A DNA stretch of 64,000 nt, from the NCBI RefSeq assembly GCF_020360975.1, contig NW_025408673.1, forward strand, positions 1 to 64,000, in the 5' to 3' direction. Position numbers and translations under genes: made by a program. The stretch comes from Hirsutella rhossiliensis. Its lineage: Eukaryota; Ascomycota; Sordariomycetes; Hypocreales; Ophiocordycipitaceae. The notes under the pieces were generated by a model. It ran no database searches and was not told the origin of the DNA. It saw nothing but the letters and a program-made list of their open reading frames with translations. Positions 38,986-45,900 of the stretch are shown here, piece after piece. How positions within the stretch are numbered: position 1 is the stretch's first letter; every line of letters starts with the position of its first letter.

Positions 38986-39884
38986 GAGTATTACTATTTG
39001 TACAAAAACATATCGCTATTCGTACAAAGGCTCCATTTATAAGATACGTACCAGCACCAGCCCGCCCCGCCTATTTATACCGCCCGCATGGCAGGTAGCG
39101 GTACCGCCCAAACGCCCGCGCCACCGCCCGCCCACACTACACACATAAGACCCTACCTACATTCCACACACACGCATATATATATTAGAGTATTGCTATT
39201 TACACACTAGCATATTGCTGTTTGCACACTTTCCCCATTTTTAAGATACGTACTAACGCCAGTCCGCCCCGCCTATTTATGCCGCGCGCGCCTGGCAAGT
39301 ACCCGTACCGCCCAAATGCCCGCGCCCGCGCCCGCCTATATAAACACACATACTAAATTTGAAGCTATCACCAACGCCGCAATCGATAAACTTAGCCGCA
39401 GCCCGCGGTCTCTTATAGCGTTATAATAAGGATCGTTAGCCCGAGGAAATATAAGGGGAAGTGGATTAAGAGGAGGACGCGGCAGGAGGGGCGCGCCGCC
39501 GGCTTCGTCAGGACAGCCGGCTTCTTCAGGCGTTAGAGGGATCGTTGAGTGGGATGCAATTGAGGCGCCGCCGCCGCCGCCGCCCACACAGCCGTAAGGG
39601 CAAGGAGGAGCCGGATCAATTAACGGGCCGATTATTGCAACTTCTAGCTCAAGGCCCGGAAATGCGTTATTTGAGCGAATTGAGAGGCATGCGTTATATG
39701 GCCTTTATTGCCTCTTGTGTGTGTATGTGTGTGTGGGCGGGCGGGGGCGCGGGCGTTTGGGCGGTACCGCTACCTGCCATGCGGGCGCGGTACAAATAGG
39801 CGGGGCAGGCTGCTGTTAGTACGTATCTTAAGAATGGGGCCTTTGTACGAATAGCGATGTGTCTTTGTATAAATAGTAATACTC
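38986..39884. mobile_element. Foldback/MITE-like element with about 165-bp inverted ends
   Basis: About 165 bp at the left (38,986-39,150) recur inverted at the right (about 39,720-39,884): both have the outer AGTATTACTATTTRTAC, then CGCTATTCGTACAAAGG, AAGATACGTACY, CCGCCCAAACGCCCGCGC. A third, more diverged copy lies in direct orientation at 39,188-39,353. The interior (39,360-39,720) holds only a small minus-strand frame (39,336-39,587) with no recognised domain. No clear TSD: GAAAC precedes the left end and occurs 4 bp past the right end. Non-autonomous DNA element is the best reading. Confidence 0.65.
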
Positions 39885-39918
39885 TATTGAAACCCCCACT
39901 ATGGAAGAAAAAAAATTA

Positions 39919-39963
39919 CACAAGGCATCTTGGCACAAGGCATCTTGGCACAAGGCATCTTGG
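39919..39963. repeat. Tandem repeat, 3 x 15 bp
   Basis: CACAAGGCATCTTGG three times without mismatch. Confidence 0.95.
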
Positions 39964-40271
39964 CCGGCTTGCAGCCTGTGACTTTTAGTTAGGATATCTC
40001 GCTAGCCCCGGGACTGTTTCATACGGCTTCATGATCAGGAATGCCGTGTAACTGAACGAACAGTTTTTGTTACTACTCAATGAACAGTACCCGCTACCGT
40101 GTTTTTTTTTTTCAATTGTCCTGCTTGATCCACTTACACAACGTCAAATAAACACATAATCTTGTTTCATCCCTGAACCCACGGAGAGAGCCGGCAATGC
40201 CGTCTCTAGTTGCTAAGGTCATCGGGAAACATCATCGTTTACCGGAGGATAGCCGCAGCGGAAATTTCAAC
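39964..40271. other. Intergenic, no supported gene
   Basis: No coding or repeat signal beyond a short poly-T run near 40,103. Ends at the TSD of the transposon that starts at 40,278. Confidence 0.5.
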
Positions 40272-40277
40272 CAGTAG

Positions 40278-40310
40278 TACGGTGGGCGATAGGGGTCACT
40301 GTTGCAAAAC
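40278..40310. repeat. Left terminal inverted repeat (33 bp)
   Basis: Starts TACGGTGGGC; preceded by TSD CAGTAG. Three mismatches to the right end. Confidence 0.88.
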
Positions 40311-40601
40311 TCCCTGTCATTTTCTTTTGGGTTTAGGCGCCCAGCCCCCTGGTCATCCGTATACTTCAGGTCAGCATGAGAGTATGTACTGCGGACTAGC
40401 AGCGGGCCCGCACGGTCATCCTTCTGCCAGTCTAATTGCCAGTTTGCCGCACCAGTCGTAAAATGGTATCCGGCTCGCAAACCACTTACACACGTATGGA
40501 TGCGCATGATGCTATACCCAAAATTCGTTCCTGAAAAGCTGATCGATATTTTTCCAAGTGAAATCGAGCGAGCGGCGCGGTGTTTTCGCCAAACAACTTT
40601 A

Positions 40602-40643
40602 CTTTGGTATTGTCGCGGCCCGAAGACAGCGACAATACCAAAG
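40602..40643. repeat. Perfect 15-bp inverted repeat (hairpin)
   Basis: Arms CTTTGGTATTGTCGC (40,602-40,616) and its exact complement (40,629-40,643) around a 12-base loop, in the subterminal region of the 40,278-45,894 element. It could be a transposase-binding palindrome or an RNA structure. Confidence 0.85.
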
Positions 40644-41078
40644 ACAAAGACGGCGAATATCGCCAAGTCCCTCCCTGGATGGCGCTGGGAACTTGTGAAA
40701 GCCGGGCCCTACAGACAAAGAATGCAAATACACACGAGAGTTTGAGGTCTTCTGCTATACGGTGCCGAGTTGAAACTTTGGACTTTAATGTTTCCACTTC
40801 CTCCTGGCCACCACAGCTGTGTTCAGTTTTCATCCTAACGTTCATAGGAGTAACTGGGACGAGGAGCGGCGCCATGAGGCAGCAGAGGATTACCGCAGTA
40901 ATCCCGCTACTGGTCAGCACCGGACTAGCGTTGAAGTCTTTGCTAAGCCTGGCGATCTTCATTCGCCATGGCAAGGGATATTGTTCTGTAACTATTCTGC
41001 TTATATTAAAATCCCGTTTCCGAGTCCGATCCTATTTGTCCTCCTTTCCCTGGTTCTACCTCTTCTCCTCAACCGAAA

Positions 41079-41888
41079 TGGGCCCTCCACAGATTCCCCC
41101 TGGGCATGTCTACTGCGTCCAAGCCGGACAGAAGCACTATGACCTCTTCACTACCATATACGTTGGCGCGAACTATTGCGGCCGTTGCGGCTTGGCCAAC
41201 CCCTTTCGGCCGCAGCGTCGGGCCAGGTCTAAAACTCCGGCACTTCCTGGCCCATATGATGAGGTGGTCGAGGTCGAGGACTCTCCGCCACGGCCAGTCA
41301 GTCCAGCAAGTCAGCTGCTGCGTGACAGACTGAAACCAGTGTCATCCATCGGCGTTGGACACGCCGCCCAACTACTCCCCAATGAAGTTGCTGGTACCGG
41401 TGCGATGAATACACGGGCACGCATACCTCCCTTCGAGGCGTCAAGCAATCCCCAGTTCATGACCGTCGCATCAACGGCCAGTCGAGCCATTCAAAACTCC
41501 AAAGGCAGCACCAGGAAGCCTGCGAGGCAACGAACTGGCTACCAGTGGGTCCATGTAAGCCTGCTGCTTGTGAGTTTGGAGACCAGGTACTTCAACGGGC
41601 TTGCAGTGGAGGTTCCAGAGACGGTGCTGCCTCTGAAGGATACGGTGATCAAGTTTCTCGGCAGATCTACTGACTTGGCCTCGTTCACCGAGACTTTATT
41701 CGATCACCTCCGTCCGCTTCCGCCCACGATCGATCCTGCCAATAAAGATCTATCGCACAGGGTGTAGAGCAGCAGCAAGCATGAAGATCAGGAAGTGGAA
41801 GAACTCTTGATTTAGCTATCTAGAGGGGAAAAGGAGCAACATCTTTATAGATGACATAAAGGAGTGGCTGGGAGATGCTAGAAGCATC
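41079..41888 (+). pseudogene. Accessory gene A of the transposon, unknown function
   Basis: The likely start is 41,079 (MGPPQIPPGHVYCVQAGQ), although the frame is open further upstream. The N-terminus has a small cysteine cluster (VYC, then NYCGRCG) suggestive of a zinc-binding knuckle. A Pro-rich middle follows (VEVEDSPPRPVSPASQLLRD), then a conserved-looking C-terminal part (VPETVLPLKDTVIKFLGR). A TAG stop at 41,765-41,767 is followed, after a frame change, by NIFIDDIKEWLGDARSI and a stop near 41,888, which reads like the original C-terminus. The TAG could derive from CAG. No known family recognised. Its place between the inverted ends makes it cargo or a transposition accessory factor. Confidence 0.5.
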
Positions 41889-42097
41889 TGATCATATAGT
41901 GTAGGTGCCTATAACGTGTGCATAATGTTGATGGTTGGTGTGGCTGTTTGGCATAGTGTAGATGGTAGGGGTTAGCCTGTTGGAGGCTGATATCCTGTGT
42001 GTGACAAGATCTCTGGAACATTTCTTACGCTTCGACCTTCTCTGGCAAGAAAATCGTTACCGTTCCAAACACCGACAAGTACACGACACCGTCAAGC

Positions 42098-42697
42098 ATG
42101 CTCGCATCGGGGCACTTTTCGAACAACCAAGCAGGGCAGTTGAAGGTGCTAGTCGTTCTGACATCCACGGATGTGGTTGATAAGCAGGAGCCGGTCACAC
42201 CGTTGAGGCCAGATCAATGCTCGACGCCAGTCAAGGAAGACAAGAAACGGAGGGTCAAGCAAGAAGACATAAGCCCAGCCTCTAGACGCAAGAAGCGCGT
42301 CAAGCAAGAGGAGCAAGTCAAGGAAGAGATACGCGTCAAGATTAAGCACGAAGAGCCCGTTTCAACTTCATCCTGCCAGAGCCCGACACGCGACGAGCTT
42401 GGATATACTGCCAAAGAAATTGTTGGACATGGGGATGCGGTAGGCCTTGGTGAGCTGGAAGATCCACTATGCGATTTAGTGTTTGGCAGTGACCCTAGTG
42501 GAAAGGTGTATAAAGGCGTGGTGGCCGAAGGAGTCGAAGTGGACGAAGAAGATAGAGAGGAGGAGACAAGTTTTGTTCCGGAGTTCGTAAGAAACCGAAC
42601 CAACTCATCAACGAGCCGAGCGCTAACTTCAACAGGTAAACCCGGAGTCAATTTCCCAAGCCTTCAGGGAAACTCAAACTCGACTGTCCGACACTAA
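42098..42697 (+). CDS. Accessory gene B, basic/acidic protein with repeated VKxE motifs
   Basis: A frame of 199 residues. After an unremarkable start it contains KEDKKRRVKQEDISPASRRK, KRVKQEEQVKEEIRVKIKHE and an acidic C-terminal half (VDEEDREEETSF). The repeated V/I-K-x-E/D tetrapeptides (VKED, VKQE twice, VKEE, IKHE) fit the SUMO-acceptor consensus, and the Lys/Arg runs resemble nuclear localisation signals, so a nuclear role is plausible. No domain recognised. The start is uncertain, and it may be the 3' portion of a longer, intron-containing gene. Confidence 0.4.
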   Translation: MLASGHFSNNQAGQLKVLVVLTSTDVVDKQEPVTPLRPDQCSTPVKEDKKRRVKQEDISPASRRKKRVKQEEQVKEEIRVKIKHEEPVSTSSCQSPTRDELGYTAKEIVGHGDAVGLGELEDPLCDLVFGSDPSGKVYKGVVAEGVEVDEEDREEETSFVPEFVRNRTNSSTSRALTSTGKPGVNFPSLQGNSNSTVRH

Positions 42698-42969
42698 CGC
42701 TGCTAAAGCGCTTCCTCCAGCTCACTCTACACGCTTCAAGGGTGCAAAGATCCCTACAACGTTTGCTATTCGATATAGGAAAAGGAAGGATTGACTACTC
42801 AGGCTCCCCATTCGAACCATCGCTATCCTCCCGTCATCACTTACCGGTATTTTCTCCATGTCGCTTCCTGCACGTCCTCAAACCCAAGCTCAACAAGTGG
42901 CTGCTCTGCTGGTTCCCCATCTCCAAATTCACCTTCTCGGGCTTGATTTGCTTGCTCAAGTAATGCTTG

Positions 42970-44564
42970 CTATACGCGCTTAGATTGGTCAACTCGCAAA
43001 TAAATAGTATGTCTTACATATTCAGCAACGCCTCCAGTTGGCGCTTTACGGTATGCCAGCGTAGGCTGTCGGCCACTTTCGATATGTTGAATTATCTTAT
43101 CTCGAAGACCAAGGTAAAAACGCTTGAAAGGTCGCAACTTGTCCGGCTCCTGGTGAGTTCCAAGGACTACGTGATCGTAGCCCATTTCAAGGAGAACTTG
43201 GCGGCACCAGTTCTTTGTCTCCGGCTCCAAACTCGTGCTAATGTCAATATCAGCCAACGGCCGCTCCATTTCGTCTAGAATGGAGCGGTCAATCGGGATA
43301 CCCCAATTGCATGCCTTGTCTGGGTCGGGGTAATGGTAGTTCATCCAGGGCTGGCCGTGGACCACATGGGGACGGTTCTTTTGGAGGCGTATCCGATGAA
43401 GATTCCACGCCTCCACGAAGTCGAAGAGTTCTCGGCGTAGTAAGTCTTCGAAGACGGCGTAGATGGAAATCTGATCTTCCAGCATATCGCCGTCGAAGTC
43501 CCCGTCCCTGGCGAGTTCTCCAAAGTAGTCTACCTACTGCCGGGACGAGACATGCAGCATGCGCTCCCACCAACTCTCGATCTTAACGTTCTTCGTACTT
43601 GGAGCCGCCTTGTACGAATCCTTTAGTCGATTTCCTTGTTGGAAAACTTGCCCATGCCATTCCACTCGCCCGTCTGTTGCCAAGACAAAGTTCCAGTGTG
43701 CTGCTGCGACCAATGGCGTTTCGCTCCCTGTCTGCTTGCAAATACCATGGCCGAAAGCCGTAGGCGCCACACGCGGCCAAGTACTGCTTCAATACGCTCA
43801 AAGCGGTTGTAGCGGAGTGGCCAATATAAAACCAGATAATGTTGCGCGAGTATGCATCGATTGCTGCATATATCTCGAATCCATACGCCTTGAGCTTGTC
43901 GTGACCGTCAATGCACCACTGGTAGTTTGGTCCTGGGACAAGAAACTGTCCCTTCTTCCTCCGAAACATCCTTTTCGGAGTTCGACCTCATTTGGGAACA
44001 TGATTTTGTACATCGCAAAGAGGGGTCTCGGGACCCAGAGCTGCTTTTGCTGACGAAGATAAGGCTGAGAAGGCTTTTGCCATATCCCGAAATGGCATTG
44101 GACCGTCGCGTCATCTCGATGATAACCTGTTCTGTCTTTTCCAGCAACACAAGGCGCTCCTCGTCACTATTGAGCCTGCGTACCCAGCGGCGGTCCGGGT
44201 GAAGTCTGATGCGCTTTAGACCTCGTTTCGTGATCGGCCAGCCTTGTCTTTGTAGCACGCTCAGCGTCTGCTTCTCGGTAAGCCCAACGCGAAAGATCAG
44301 GTCACGGATGGTTTCTATCAGCTCTGGAGTTTCTTTGGTACGGGCTTGCTGGCGCGGGAGACCCCAGTTTGCGATTCGGCGAGAGAGTGTACTGAGATTG
44401 ACGGCGACATGGTAATGCTTCCGAAGCTTATACTTAATCTTGCTTCGCGAGACACCGTTGAGGTATAGATGAGTGATATAGTTACGGTATTGATCGATTG
44501 GATTGGGCGGACGTGCCATTGTTGCCGGTAACGTCGAAGGGATGGTGATTTTCTTGGTCCTCAT
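42970..44564 (-). pseudogene. DDE integrase-type transposase, frameshifted
   Basis: From the start at 44,564 (or 44,516, MARPPNPIDQYRNYI) the N-terminus is helix-turn-helix-like (VSRSKIKYKLRKHYHVAVNL, then LIETIRDLIFRVGLTEKQTL). The catalytic core has WCIDGH (Asp codon 43,907-43,909), a strand ending LQAD (Asp codon 43,730-43,732) and VKIESWWERM (Glu codon 43,576-43,578), a D-D-E set like eukaryotic integrase-core proteins. The C-terminal half (43,485-42,970) is intact (FVEAWNLHRIRLQKNRP). Breaks: apparent single-base losses in A runs near 44,075-44,078 and 43,972-43,975, a frame change near 43,728, and a TAG at 43,534-43,536. The integrase fold inside inverted repeats with a 6-bp TSD supports a cut-and-paste transposase. 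Confidence 0.8.
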
Positions 44565-44787
44565 GCCAGGAAAAAGGGGGACAGCGATATAAATTGACTT
44601 ACCGCGTTTTCCCGCAGCGGTGGTGCCGCTGGCCCGCAGCGGCTTAGTGCCAGGGGGCTGTTCGTGGAACGGTTACCAAACCAGGAACAGATCGACGCTG
44701 CTCACCCGCAAATATTTACAGAACCCAGATCCCTTCCAACCCTAGTTCCTACCTTTCCTTCTGTATCATCATTGCCGTGGAAAGCCA

Positions 44788-45548
44788 ATGGTCAGCAGCG
44801 TTGTCATGTCCACAGCAGATCCCGCTATCGTAAGTGAAACTGCAGTCGCTGGCCCGATGGATGGGGACTCGCCCAGCAGGAATAAAATAGTCAAGGGTAG
44901 AGGATTGGTCCGACTCAACGCCCGCAAATCCACGGCCAAGATTACCGTACAATCCAATAAGTTCTTCTATGAAGAAGAGGCGGCTGCTAACTTGCTCGCC
45001 CGAGCAGAAGAAGAAGCAGACAAAAAGGCCCTCCCGTCGGCTCGGTGCGAGACTTCCCATGCCGTCCTTGCGTCACACGCGCCACCAAGACTCCCGGCCA
45101 TGAATGTGCCTCCCAGGACAGTACGTTGATTGTCCCCTGTAGTATATGTCTGCCTCACTAATTTGCCGGGATAGATACCGGTGCTGCGTGCTGGGACTGC
45201 GCAAAGAACGCTCACACGTGCAGGCCAGTATGAGACCTTTGTTTGCTCCAAAGAAGCGAGAAATTAATCGAGTTGAATGTTCTAGGTCCCTGCTGGGGCT
45301 GTTGCTGCCGTGCGTGCCTTTGGGACGTGAATCGGCATCTCAAGCTTGCAGATGCCGAACCCGATGACACCTGGCGCATCGCTGCGCAGCGAGCAGCACA
45401 ACAGCTACGTGCTTGCGGTGGTAGTGCGGCTCCTTCTACCGCTTCAGGACCAGCTCCCGCTTTGGCCCCCGAAGAGCGGAAGCTTATGGCGTTAGAAACC
45501 ATCGCTGAGGCTGCTCGGCTCTGGATTGTGAGCGAACTGAAGTTGTGA
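44788..45548 (+). pseudogene. Accessory gene D, cysteine-pair protein with introns
   Basis: From ATG 44,788 (or 44,806) an N-terminal region with KFFYEEEAAANLLARAEEEA leads into a cysteine-rich part in a shifted frame: FPCRPCVTRATKTPGHEC. The frame change coincides with an A5 run at 45,022-45,026. A 54-bp intron (45,121-45,174, GTACGT...CTCACTAAT...ATAG) then joins to GAACWDCAKNAHTC, a second C-x2-C-x6-C cluster. A further intron near 45,219-45,284 and a frame change near 45,325 precede LADAEPDDTWRIAAQRAAQQ and the end at 45,548. The two cysteine clusters suggest zinc binding; the family is not recognised. It lies between the transposase and the right inverted repeat. Confidence 0.45.
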
Positions 45549-45861
45549 GTTGCATTTTGGCTGCTAACTGGATATATAGCAGCTTAACAAGCCGGAGGAT
45601 GAGGACGAGGAGAATGTATAGATAGAATAAGGGAACACATTAAAGCGTTGGAATTACCGTGCGGTATTTTCGCCATAGGCGACTGATATGTTTGTGACGA
45701 GAGACGCGCTGCTGGTCCGCAGCGGCCCCGTAGCTGTGACTACACCTGCCGTAACGCCAAATTTTCCAACGAAGTTGGGCCGAGATACATAGACCAATGT
45801 ACCGTGGGGCGGGCCGTTCATGCCGCTAACCCATTTTGACTCTCGCGCGGTGACTTTTTGG

Positions 45862-45894
45862 GTTTTGCAACAGTGACCCCTATAGCCTGCCGTA
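45862..45894. repeat. Right terminal inverted repeat (33 bp)
   Basis: Ends GCCTGCCGTA; followed by TSD CAGTAG (45,895-45,900). Confidence 0.88.
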
Positions 45895-45900
45895 CAGTAG

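Follow-up and report, generated by a model that had tools for sequence, protein, structure and literature searches.

A conserved two-gene module accompanies the transposase of an IS3EU-like DNA transposon in Hirsutella rhossiliensis and may encode its trans-acting helpers

The first 64,000 nucleotides of contig NW_025408673.1 of the filamentous fungus Hirsutella rhossiliensis (here called the window; the genome comprises 81.8 Mb in 40 contigs) contain a DNA transposon of 5,617 bp at positions 40278 to 45894, bracketed by a duplication of the hexamer CAGTAG. The element fits the IS3EU type and carries, besides a transposase, two further genes, designated AB and D, which have relatives in other Sordariomycetes. 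We put at roughly 0.6 the probability that AB and D are trans-acting helpers of this young transposon family and not random passengers, because both genes are constrained and linked to the transposase. An earlier sequence-only reading of the window had also taken the extra genes for nuclear or nucleic-acid-binding helpers rather than random cargo, and this is supported here by purifying selection, by their travel with the transposase and by features of their sequences. The new part is the conserved two-gene module itself; IS3EU elements with extra genes are already known.

Linkage was counted from protein matches in the host genome, with transposase matches of 56% identity and up forming the close class and those of 30 to 51% left out. 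Among the 24 close-class transposase loci, AB was present within 8 kb at 14, D at 16 and at least one of the two at 18. The other six lack both genes: four belong to a sister family, one is a relic riddled with stops and one is only a short fragment. The expected joint travel of the extra genes with the transposase was thus found at most but not all loci. Viewed from the accessory genes, a close transposase is found no more than 8 kb away at 14 of the 23 AB loci and 15 of the 21 D loci, and the remainder are mostly short fragments. The two genes thus do not represent one syntenic host locus but occur in many places, mostly beside a transposase.

In other genomes, 13 of 51 AB clusters have a longest contig whose listed length is identical to that of a transposase or D match (compared by eye across tables); one of these, a 12.5-Mb Hirsutella contig, says little about neighborhood. 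Neighboring locus tags were found in Fusarium oxysporum (LZL87_014324 for AB and 014322 for D), in F. solani (FSOLCH5_015380 for AB and 015382 for D; FSOLCH5_015189 for the transposase and 015190 for D), in Stachybotrys (S40285_10795 for AB and 10797 for D) and in Ilyonectria robusta (AUP68_11165 for AB and 11167 for D; the contig also bears a transposase). The single tag left between AB and D would fit the order AB-transposase-D seen in the window. Judging from genus names, we take AB to occur in Hypocreales and Glomerellales, and D also in Xylariales.

The divergence of the two genes is correlated. AB and D distances over 10 pairs gave a Mantel r of 0.69 (0 of 5,000 permutations); nine of these pairs come from the same contig or locus, and one combines AB and D from two copies of the window family (L014 and L009, respectively; L numbers denote loci). 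For AB and transposase distances, six pairs gave an r of 0.58 (95 of 5,000 permutations). Comparison with the 77%-identical relative L022, using our own Nei-Gojobori script, yielded an omega of 0.20 for AB (415 codons) and of 0.07 for each of the two transposase parts (330 and 327 codons); for the inner three exons of D (38, 18 and 81 codons), the values were 0.04, 0.08 and 0.29. AB and D are therefore under purifying selection, which argues against their being passive passengers.

AB had been read from the window sequence as two of three separate plus-strand genes, A and B. The window copy is split by an inserted 254-bp repeat (positions 41752 to 42005) bordered by AAGATCT repeats at 41745 to 41751 and 42006 to 42012. 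Among the nine complete copies of the element in the genome, only the window copy, L009 and L010 contain this insert; it is missing from the six others and from L022. Where it is absent, one uninterrupted frame runs through A and B, of 453 amino acids in L014, 502 open codons in L012 and 448 codons in L022, and the homologs from other fungi combine both parts in one protein (e.g., P0002, with 478 amino acids and 81% identity). A and B are hence one gene, and three separate cargo genes are ruled out. The insert has 46 genome matches; 14, including the three in AB, cover nearly its full length with 93 to 100% identity, and more distant relatives have 68 to 69% identity. It is therefore a short repeat that jumped into AB. 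Its reading as an intron was rejected, as it lacks GT..AG ends and has many genomic copies.

The first exon of AB extends on the plus strand from 41078 to 42586 and includes A and most of B. Its ATG was placed from the homolog alignment; longer A frames, from a GTG at 40580 or from an ATG at element position 402, found no support, as homologs begin at the M of 41078. Exon 1 is probably followed by a 49-bp intron (42587 to 42635; GTAAG..GCTAAC..CAG) and a short basic last exon (42636 to 42794, ending in RYRKRKD), as predicted from matches of homologs, with P0002 matching the C-terminal exon at 42618 to 42791. The H. rhossiliensis protein P0023 is 99% identical to AB across 55% of its length.

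AB, aligned from L014 together with 27 of its 51 homologs, has three notable regions. The N-terminus contains a C-H-C-C zinc-type pattern, in agreement with the cysteine knuckle noted earlier in A. Residues 152 to 279 align with many solved beta-grasp domains, and the fold prediction weakly suggests that the middle of AB is ubiquitin-like. The tail is rich in the SUMO consensus psi-K-x-E/D, of which 98 occurrences were observed versus 17.3 expected over 23 of the 28 aligned proteins (in the other five, the anchor was not found or the tail was shorter than 80 amino acids), confirming the repeated SUMO-like motifs described for B. One of the 23 proteins, P0041, does not exceed its own shuffles in this count.

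Gene D (44788 to 45621, plus strand) is frameshifted in the window copy and is predicted to consist of five exons (44788 to 44946, 45008 to 45120, 45175 to 45227, 45286 to 45527 and 45580 to 45621). It likely carries four introns, of 52 to 61 bp, whose removal from copy L009 leaves one open frame of 203 amino acids; in L010 and L018, spliced in the same way, the frame breaks later, at runs. Several gene models of D homologs likewise join ..AK[IV]T to KKKQTKK.. over the first intron. The introns and the two C-x2-C clusters attributed to D from the sequence were thus both recovered, the former as predictions. In an alignment of 37 of the 76 D homologs, a lysine-rich stretch precedes a conserved cysteine cluster, which is followed by an acidic tail. 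The cysteines of P0157 (C84, C87, C99, C109, C112 and C119) are spaced C-x2-C-x11-C-x9-C-x2-C-x6-C, and five of the six are kept in at least 90% of the rows, with the third just below. This spacing is wider than the classic pattern of the Zn2Cys6 binuclear cluster (PF00172 type), and none of the 37 aligned proteins matched a zinc-cluster model at an E value of 1.

No Pfam family was detected for AB or D in scans of seven window open reading frames (ORFs) and all members of both alignments. The lack of a recognized family, as originally described for the extra genes, was therefore upheld, while their number was reduced from three to two. A PDB sequence search, together with Foldseek using a model of D, returned nothing usable on function; nucleocapsid matches to D in the PDB sequence search (E values of 1.6 and above) were regarded as chance.

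The transposase gene lies between the two accessory genes on the minus strand (42871 to 44519) and is also frameshifted in the window assembly; an additional short C-terminal exon is possible, judging from the sequence. The D-D-E integrase-fold transposase proposed earlier was borne out by a Pfam hidden Markov model scan, in which pieces of the window gene matched rva_4 (1e-12), within an rva_4/rve core, and Clr5 (2.5e-6), at the N-terminus. The rva_4 match was above the cutoff of 26 in the window (48.6) and in the four homologs scanned (78.9 to 84.7). The Clr5 match exceeded its cutoff in the window piece and in two of the four homologs, whereas P0052 fell short of it and P0061 had no such match. 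An open relative of 517 amino acids is encoded by L022 (L022:5417-6967). Its candidate catalytic residues are D206, D265 and E317, a spacing of 51 residues separating the second D from the E; this assignment is presumptive, the E having been chosen by motif. The first cysteine of this protein is residue 204, adjoining the catalytic D, with none upstream. At least 100 relatives of the L022 transposase were present among the matches listed (E value of 1.4e-26 or better, scored for the candidates with the most words in common), and those that are named are presumably all ascomycetes.

The Clr5 domain, named after a fission yeast silencing protein, belongs to the N-terminal part of the transposase (window positions 44019 to 44519) and is recorded in about 25 of 100 transposase relatives among the matches listed. 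Host proteins with Clr5 domains might descend from transposases of this IS3EU-like kind. No literature on transposons combining Clr5 with an integrase core was found; a literature match for an integrase core in Fusarium oxysporum was set aside, as the core belongs to a Copia element in the accessible text.

The 33-bp terminal inverted repeats (TIRs) of the element, TACGG.. at 40278 to 40310 (plus strand) and ..CCGTA at 45862 to 45894 (minus strand), agree at 30 of 33 positions, with mismatches at positions 6, 7 and 11. They are flanked by the 6-bp target site duplication (TSD) CAGTAG at 40272 to 40277 and 45895 to 45900. Both the inverted ends and the TSD accordingly stand as first described. 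Further inside, a subterminal motif on the left, GCTGCTRGTCCGC (40391 to 40403, read on the minus strand), has an inverted partner near the right end, GCTGCTGGTCCGC (45708 to 45720, plus strand). When one arm was shuffled, equally good pairs occurred in 1 of 500 cases (9 of 500 for L022). Both motifs are also present in L022, and the left one is present in L028 and L029. A weak third copy with two mismatches is located at 44625 to 44637 (plus strand), between the starts of the transposase and D. No paralogous empty site was found, the left flank (39500 to 40277) having no second full copy among the best 40 of 162 candidates scored. In the same search, a repeat of about 385 bp directly left of the element (39500 to 39884) had at least 44 genome matches.

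Eight further complete copies are present in the genome (L009, L010, L011 and L014 to L018). Over ungapped columns, the nine copies are 99.2 to 99.9% identical to one another and form two subfamilies with 99.8 to 99.9% identity inside each, separated by 21 fixed substitutions; L017 stands apart at 99.2 to 99.3%. A search for copies with different 6-bp TSDs was rewarded: perfect and mutually different duplications flank nine of the ten close copies with two ends, namely, eight of the nine complete copies and the interrupted copy L013/L030 (CAGTAG, CGCGGG, CTGCCT, GATACA, CCCAAC, CCAAAC, CACAGC, TCCCAG and CACTTT). L017 is the only complete copy with unequal flanks. Its AB gene is disrupted by another insert, 282 bp long with the ends TGTCAGAACG..CGTTCTGACA, and L017 is perhaps a recombinant. 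TSDs of 6 bp also flank L022 and L024, a 1.3-kb deletion derivative. L023 was not considered an independent insertion because the 30 bp compared on each side are the same as for L024. L012 retains its left end and was not counted as two-ended because its right match ends 12 bp short; for L020 and L021, only the left end was visible. Overall, the element is a recently active cut-and-paste DNA transposon.

The nine aligned copies differ by 67 substitution columns and by 73 indel events, of which two are the long inserts (282 and 261 columns). Of the 71 short indels, 44 fall inside homopolymer runs of at least 3, which make up 15.6% of the bases. Furthermore, 25 short indels vary within both subfamilies, compared to 2 of the 67 substitution columns. 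Many frameshifts between copies therefore look like assembly error. As the short indels concentrate in homopolymer runs, frame breaks in single copies, including those of the window, are largely untrustworthy, and open frames were taken from other copies (AB from L014, spliced D from L009 and the transposase from L022). Such indels, separating copies that are otherwise almost identical, point to a long-read assembly without polishing, and frameshifts elsewhere in the window need caution.

IS3EU elements have been described as having TA..TA termini, 6-bp TSDs and a DDD/E transposase with no HHCC motif before the core (PMC10045372, accessible part), and a fungal set carrying TET/JBP genes has TAYGG..CCRTA ends, TIRs of >30 bp and 6-bp TSDs (PMC12730594, accessible part). 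The TACGG..CCGTA termini of the present element fit both accounts, and its TIR length fits the latter. It also shares the 6-bp TSD (nine of ten two-ended close copies, L022 and L024, with L017 lacking it), the DDD/E integrase core (rva_4; D206, D265 and E317 in L022) and the absence of an HHCC motif upstream of the core in the L022 transposase, while it differs from IS3EU elements in general, as described in that part of PMC10045372, by the extra genes AB and D. The ends, the TSD, the integrase core and the lack of an upstream HHCC motif thus fit the IS3EU membership initially suggested, which stands as a putative assignment by these features.

Extra genes in this group are not unprecedented. 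Fungal IS3EU families with TET/JBP and alpha-kinase genes have been published (PMC12730594); the present element resembles the TET/JBP set, within the accessible text, in its ends, TIR length, TSD, possession of extra genes and the opposite orientation of the transposase and another gene. Neither a TET/JBP dioxygenase nor an alpha-kinase was detected in Pfam scans of the seven window ORFs and of all aligned AB and D proteins. Styx of Zymoseptoria is an IS3EU element with GATA, CCHC and DUF3577 genes (PMC10853768), sharing with the present element an IS3EU-like integrase, a 6-bp TSD, recent activity, a subfamily defined by an insert and additional ORFs that contain putative DNA-binding motifs. 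Styx differs in its length of 7.9 kb and its four ORFs. No listed homolog of AB (51) or D (76) bears the name Zymoseptoria, although many rows are nameless and the Styx proteins were not part of this comparison. In Colletotrichum lupini, IS3EU is reported to be the most abundant of the DNA transposons (PMC11645255). The original view that such elements are poorly described in fungi therefore does not hold in its strong form. No description of the AB/D module was found in the passages covered of the literature on IS3EU, Fusarium IS3EU or H. rhossiliensis elements, with Repbase and most subscription journals outside reach.

If AB and D are helpers, the DDE transposase would bind the ends through its N-terminal Clr5/helix-turn-helix part, excise the element and join it to a 6-bp staggered target, a step visible here as the TSDs. 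D, with its lysine-rich stretch, cysteine cluster and acidic tail, probably binds DNA; the best candidate sites would be the inverted subterminal motifs, together with the stretch that separates the start of the transposase from that of D. AB, with its C-H-C-C N-terminus, predicted ubiquitin-like middle and SUMO consensus-rich tail, probably serves as a nuclear scaffold for assembly or regulation, and copies with a broken AB could be served by intact ones. Such a division of labor would resemble TnpA-TnpD of En/Spm or MURB of Mutator and VANC of VANDAL elements, in which a transposase is accompanied by an element-encoded noncatalytic helper or anti-silencing protein. This is an analogy, with no homology claimed; En/Spm and Mutator belong to other transposase superfamilies. 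A bolder version, which we think improbable as a whole, is that AB founds an unrecognized helper class, a ubiquitin-like scaffold with a SUMO acceptor tail, which together with subterminally bound D would assemble or license the transpososome, couple it to the SUMO/ubiquitin-linked chromatin system of the host and be shared in trans by relatives lacking AB and D across Sordariomycetes.

Several observations weigh against a strict need for the two genes. The subfamily with the 254-bp insert comprises three copies at three sites, each with its own TSD, and must therefore have spread after AB was broken; AB of L017 is broken as well, by the other insert. In addition, the sister family, whose transposase DNA is 85% identical, has neither AB nor D at its four loci (L026, L028, L029 and G000:C6:3748641-3750159). 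The left flanks of L026, L028 and L029 differ; L028, the one among them with both ends seen, has no matching TSD. All three of these loci carry the transposase in inverted orientation with respect to the ends. Copies with a broken AB or without both genes fit trans action, but they also fit dispensability. The multiplication of the insert-bearing subfamily and the existence of the sister family are what would be expected if AB and D were passive passengers, captured once and carried along. We regard this as quite unlikely, given the purifying selection on both genes, their correlated divergence over 10 pairs and the occurrence of relatives with the same neighbors in several fungal genera. Constraint alone cannot separate benefit to the host from benefit to the element, and AB and D could in principle be adaptive cargo kept by selection on the fungus. 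This is very improbable, as most copies of the two genes have a close transposase within 8 kb (14 of 23 AB and 15 of 21 D loci), their other loci are mostly short fragments, and no enzyme or transport family was matched.

The most serious competitor, although we consider it clearly less likely than the helper reading, places AB and D outside the reaction itself, as proteins shielding the element from host silencing (heterochromatin, methylation or defense linked to repeat-induced point mutation), for example, by binding element DNA and recruiting or decoying SUMO/ubiquitin-linked regulators. The psi-K-x-E/D-rich tail and the weak ubiquitin-like prediction for AB would suit such a role, and the TET/JBP genes of other fungal IS3EU elements have been proposed to aid against methylation-based silencing (PMC12730594, accessible part). 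Likewise, stop-riddled relics are present in the genome beside copies that are 99.8 to 99.9% identical, and action in trans would explain the spread of copies with a broken AB or without both genes. The old transposase relics (G000:C17:1165156-1166673, C5:2149298-2151016 and C4:2765337-2766533) contain 43 to 58 TAG/TAA stops each and look as repeat-induced point mutation would leave them, in a genome that also holds near-identical young copies. However, no enzyme domain was found in AB or D, the fold prediction is weak, and clean young copies would be expected just as well after a recent burst or in an asexual lineage. More distant IS3EU-like transposase lineages (30 to 51% identity) coexist in the same genome, some with open frames.

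Eukaryotic integrase-type transposons are often pictured as consisting of a transposase and ends only. Here, fungi of at least two orders, judging from genus names, have kept two uncharacterized proteins beside one and the same type of transposase. As intact, AB-broken and AB/D-less relatives exist in one genome, the need for the helpers and their sharing in trans would be directly testable. The finding also corrects annotation, in that numerous fungal proteins labeled "hypothetical" correspond to AB or D of the present transposon.

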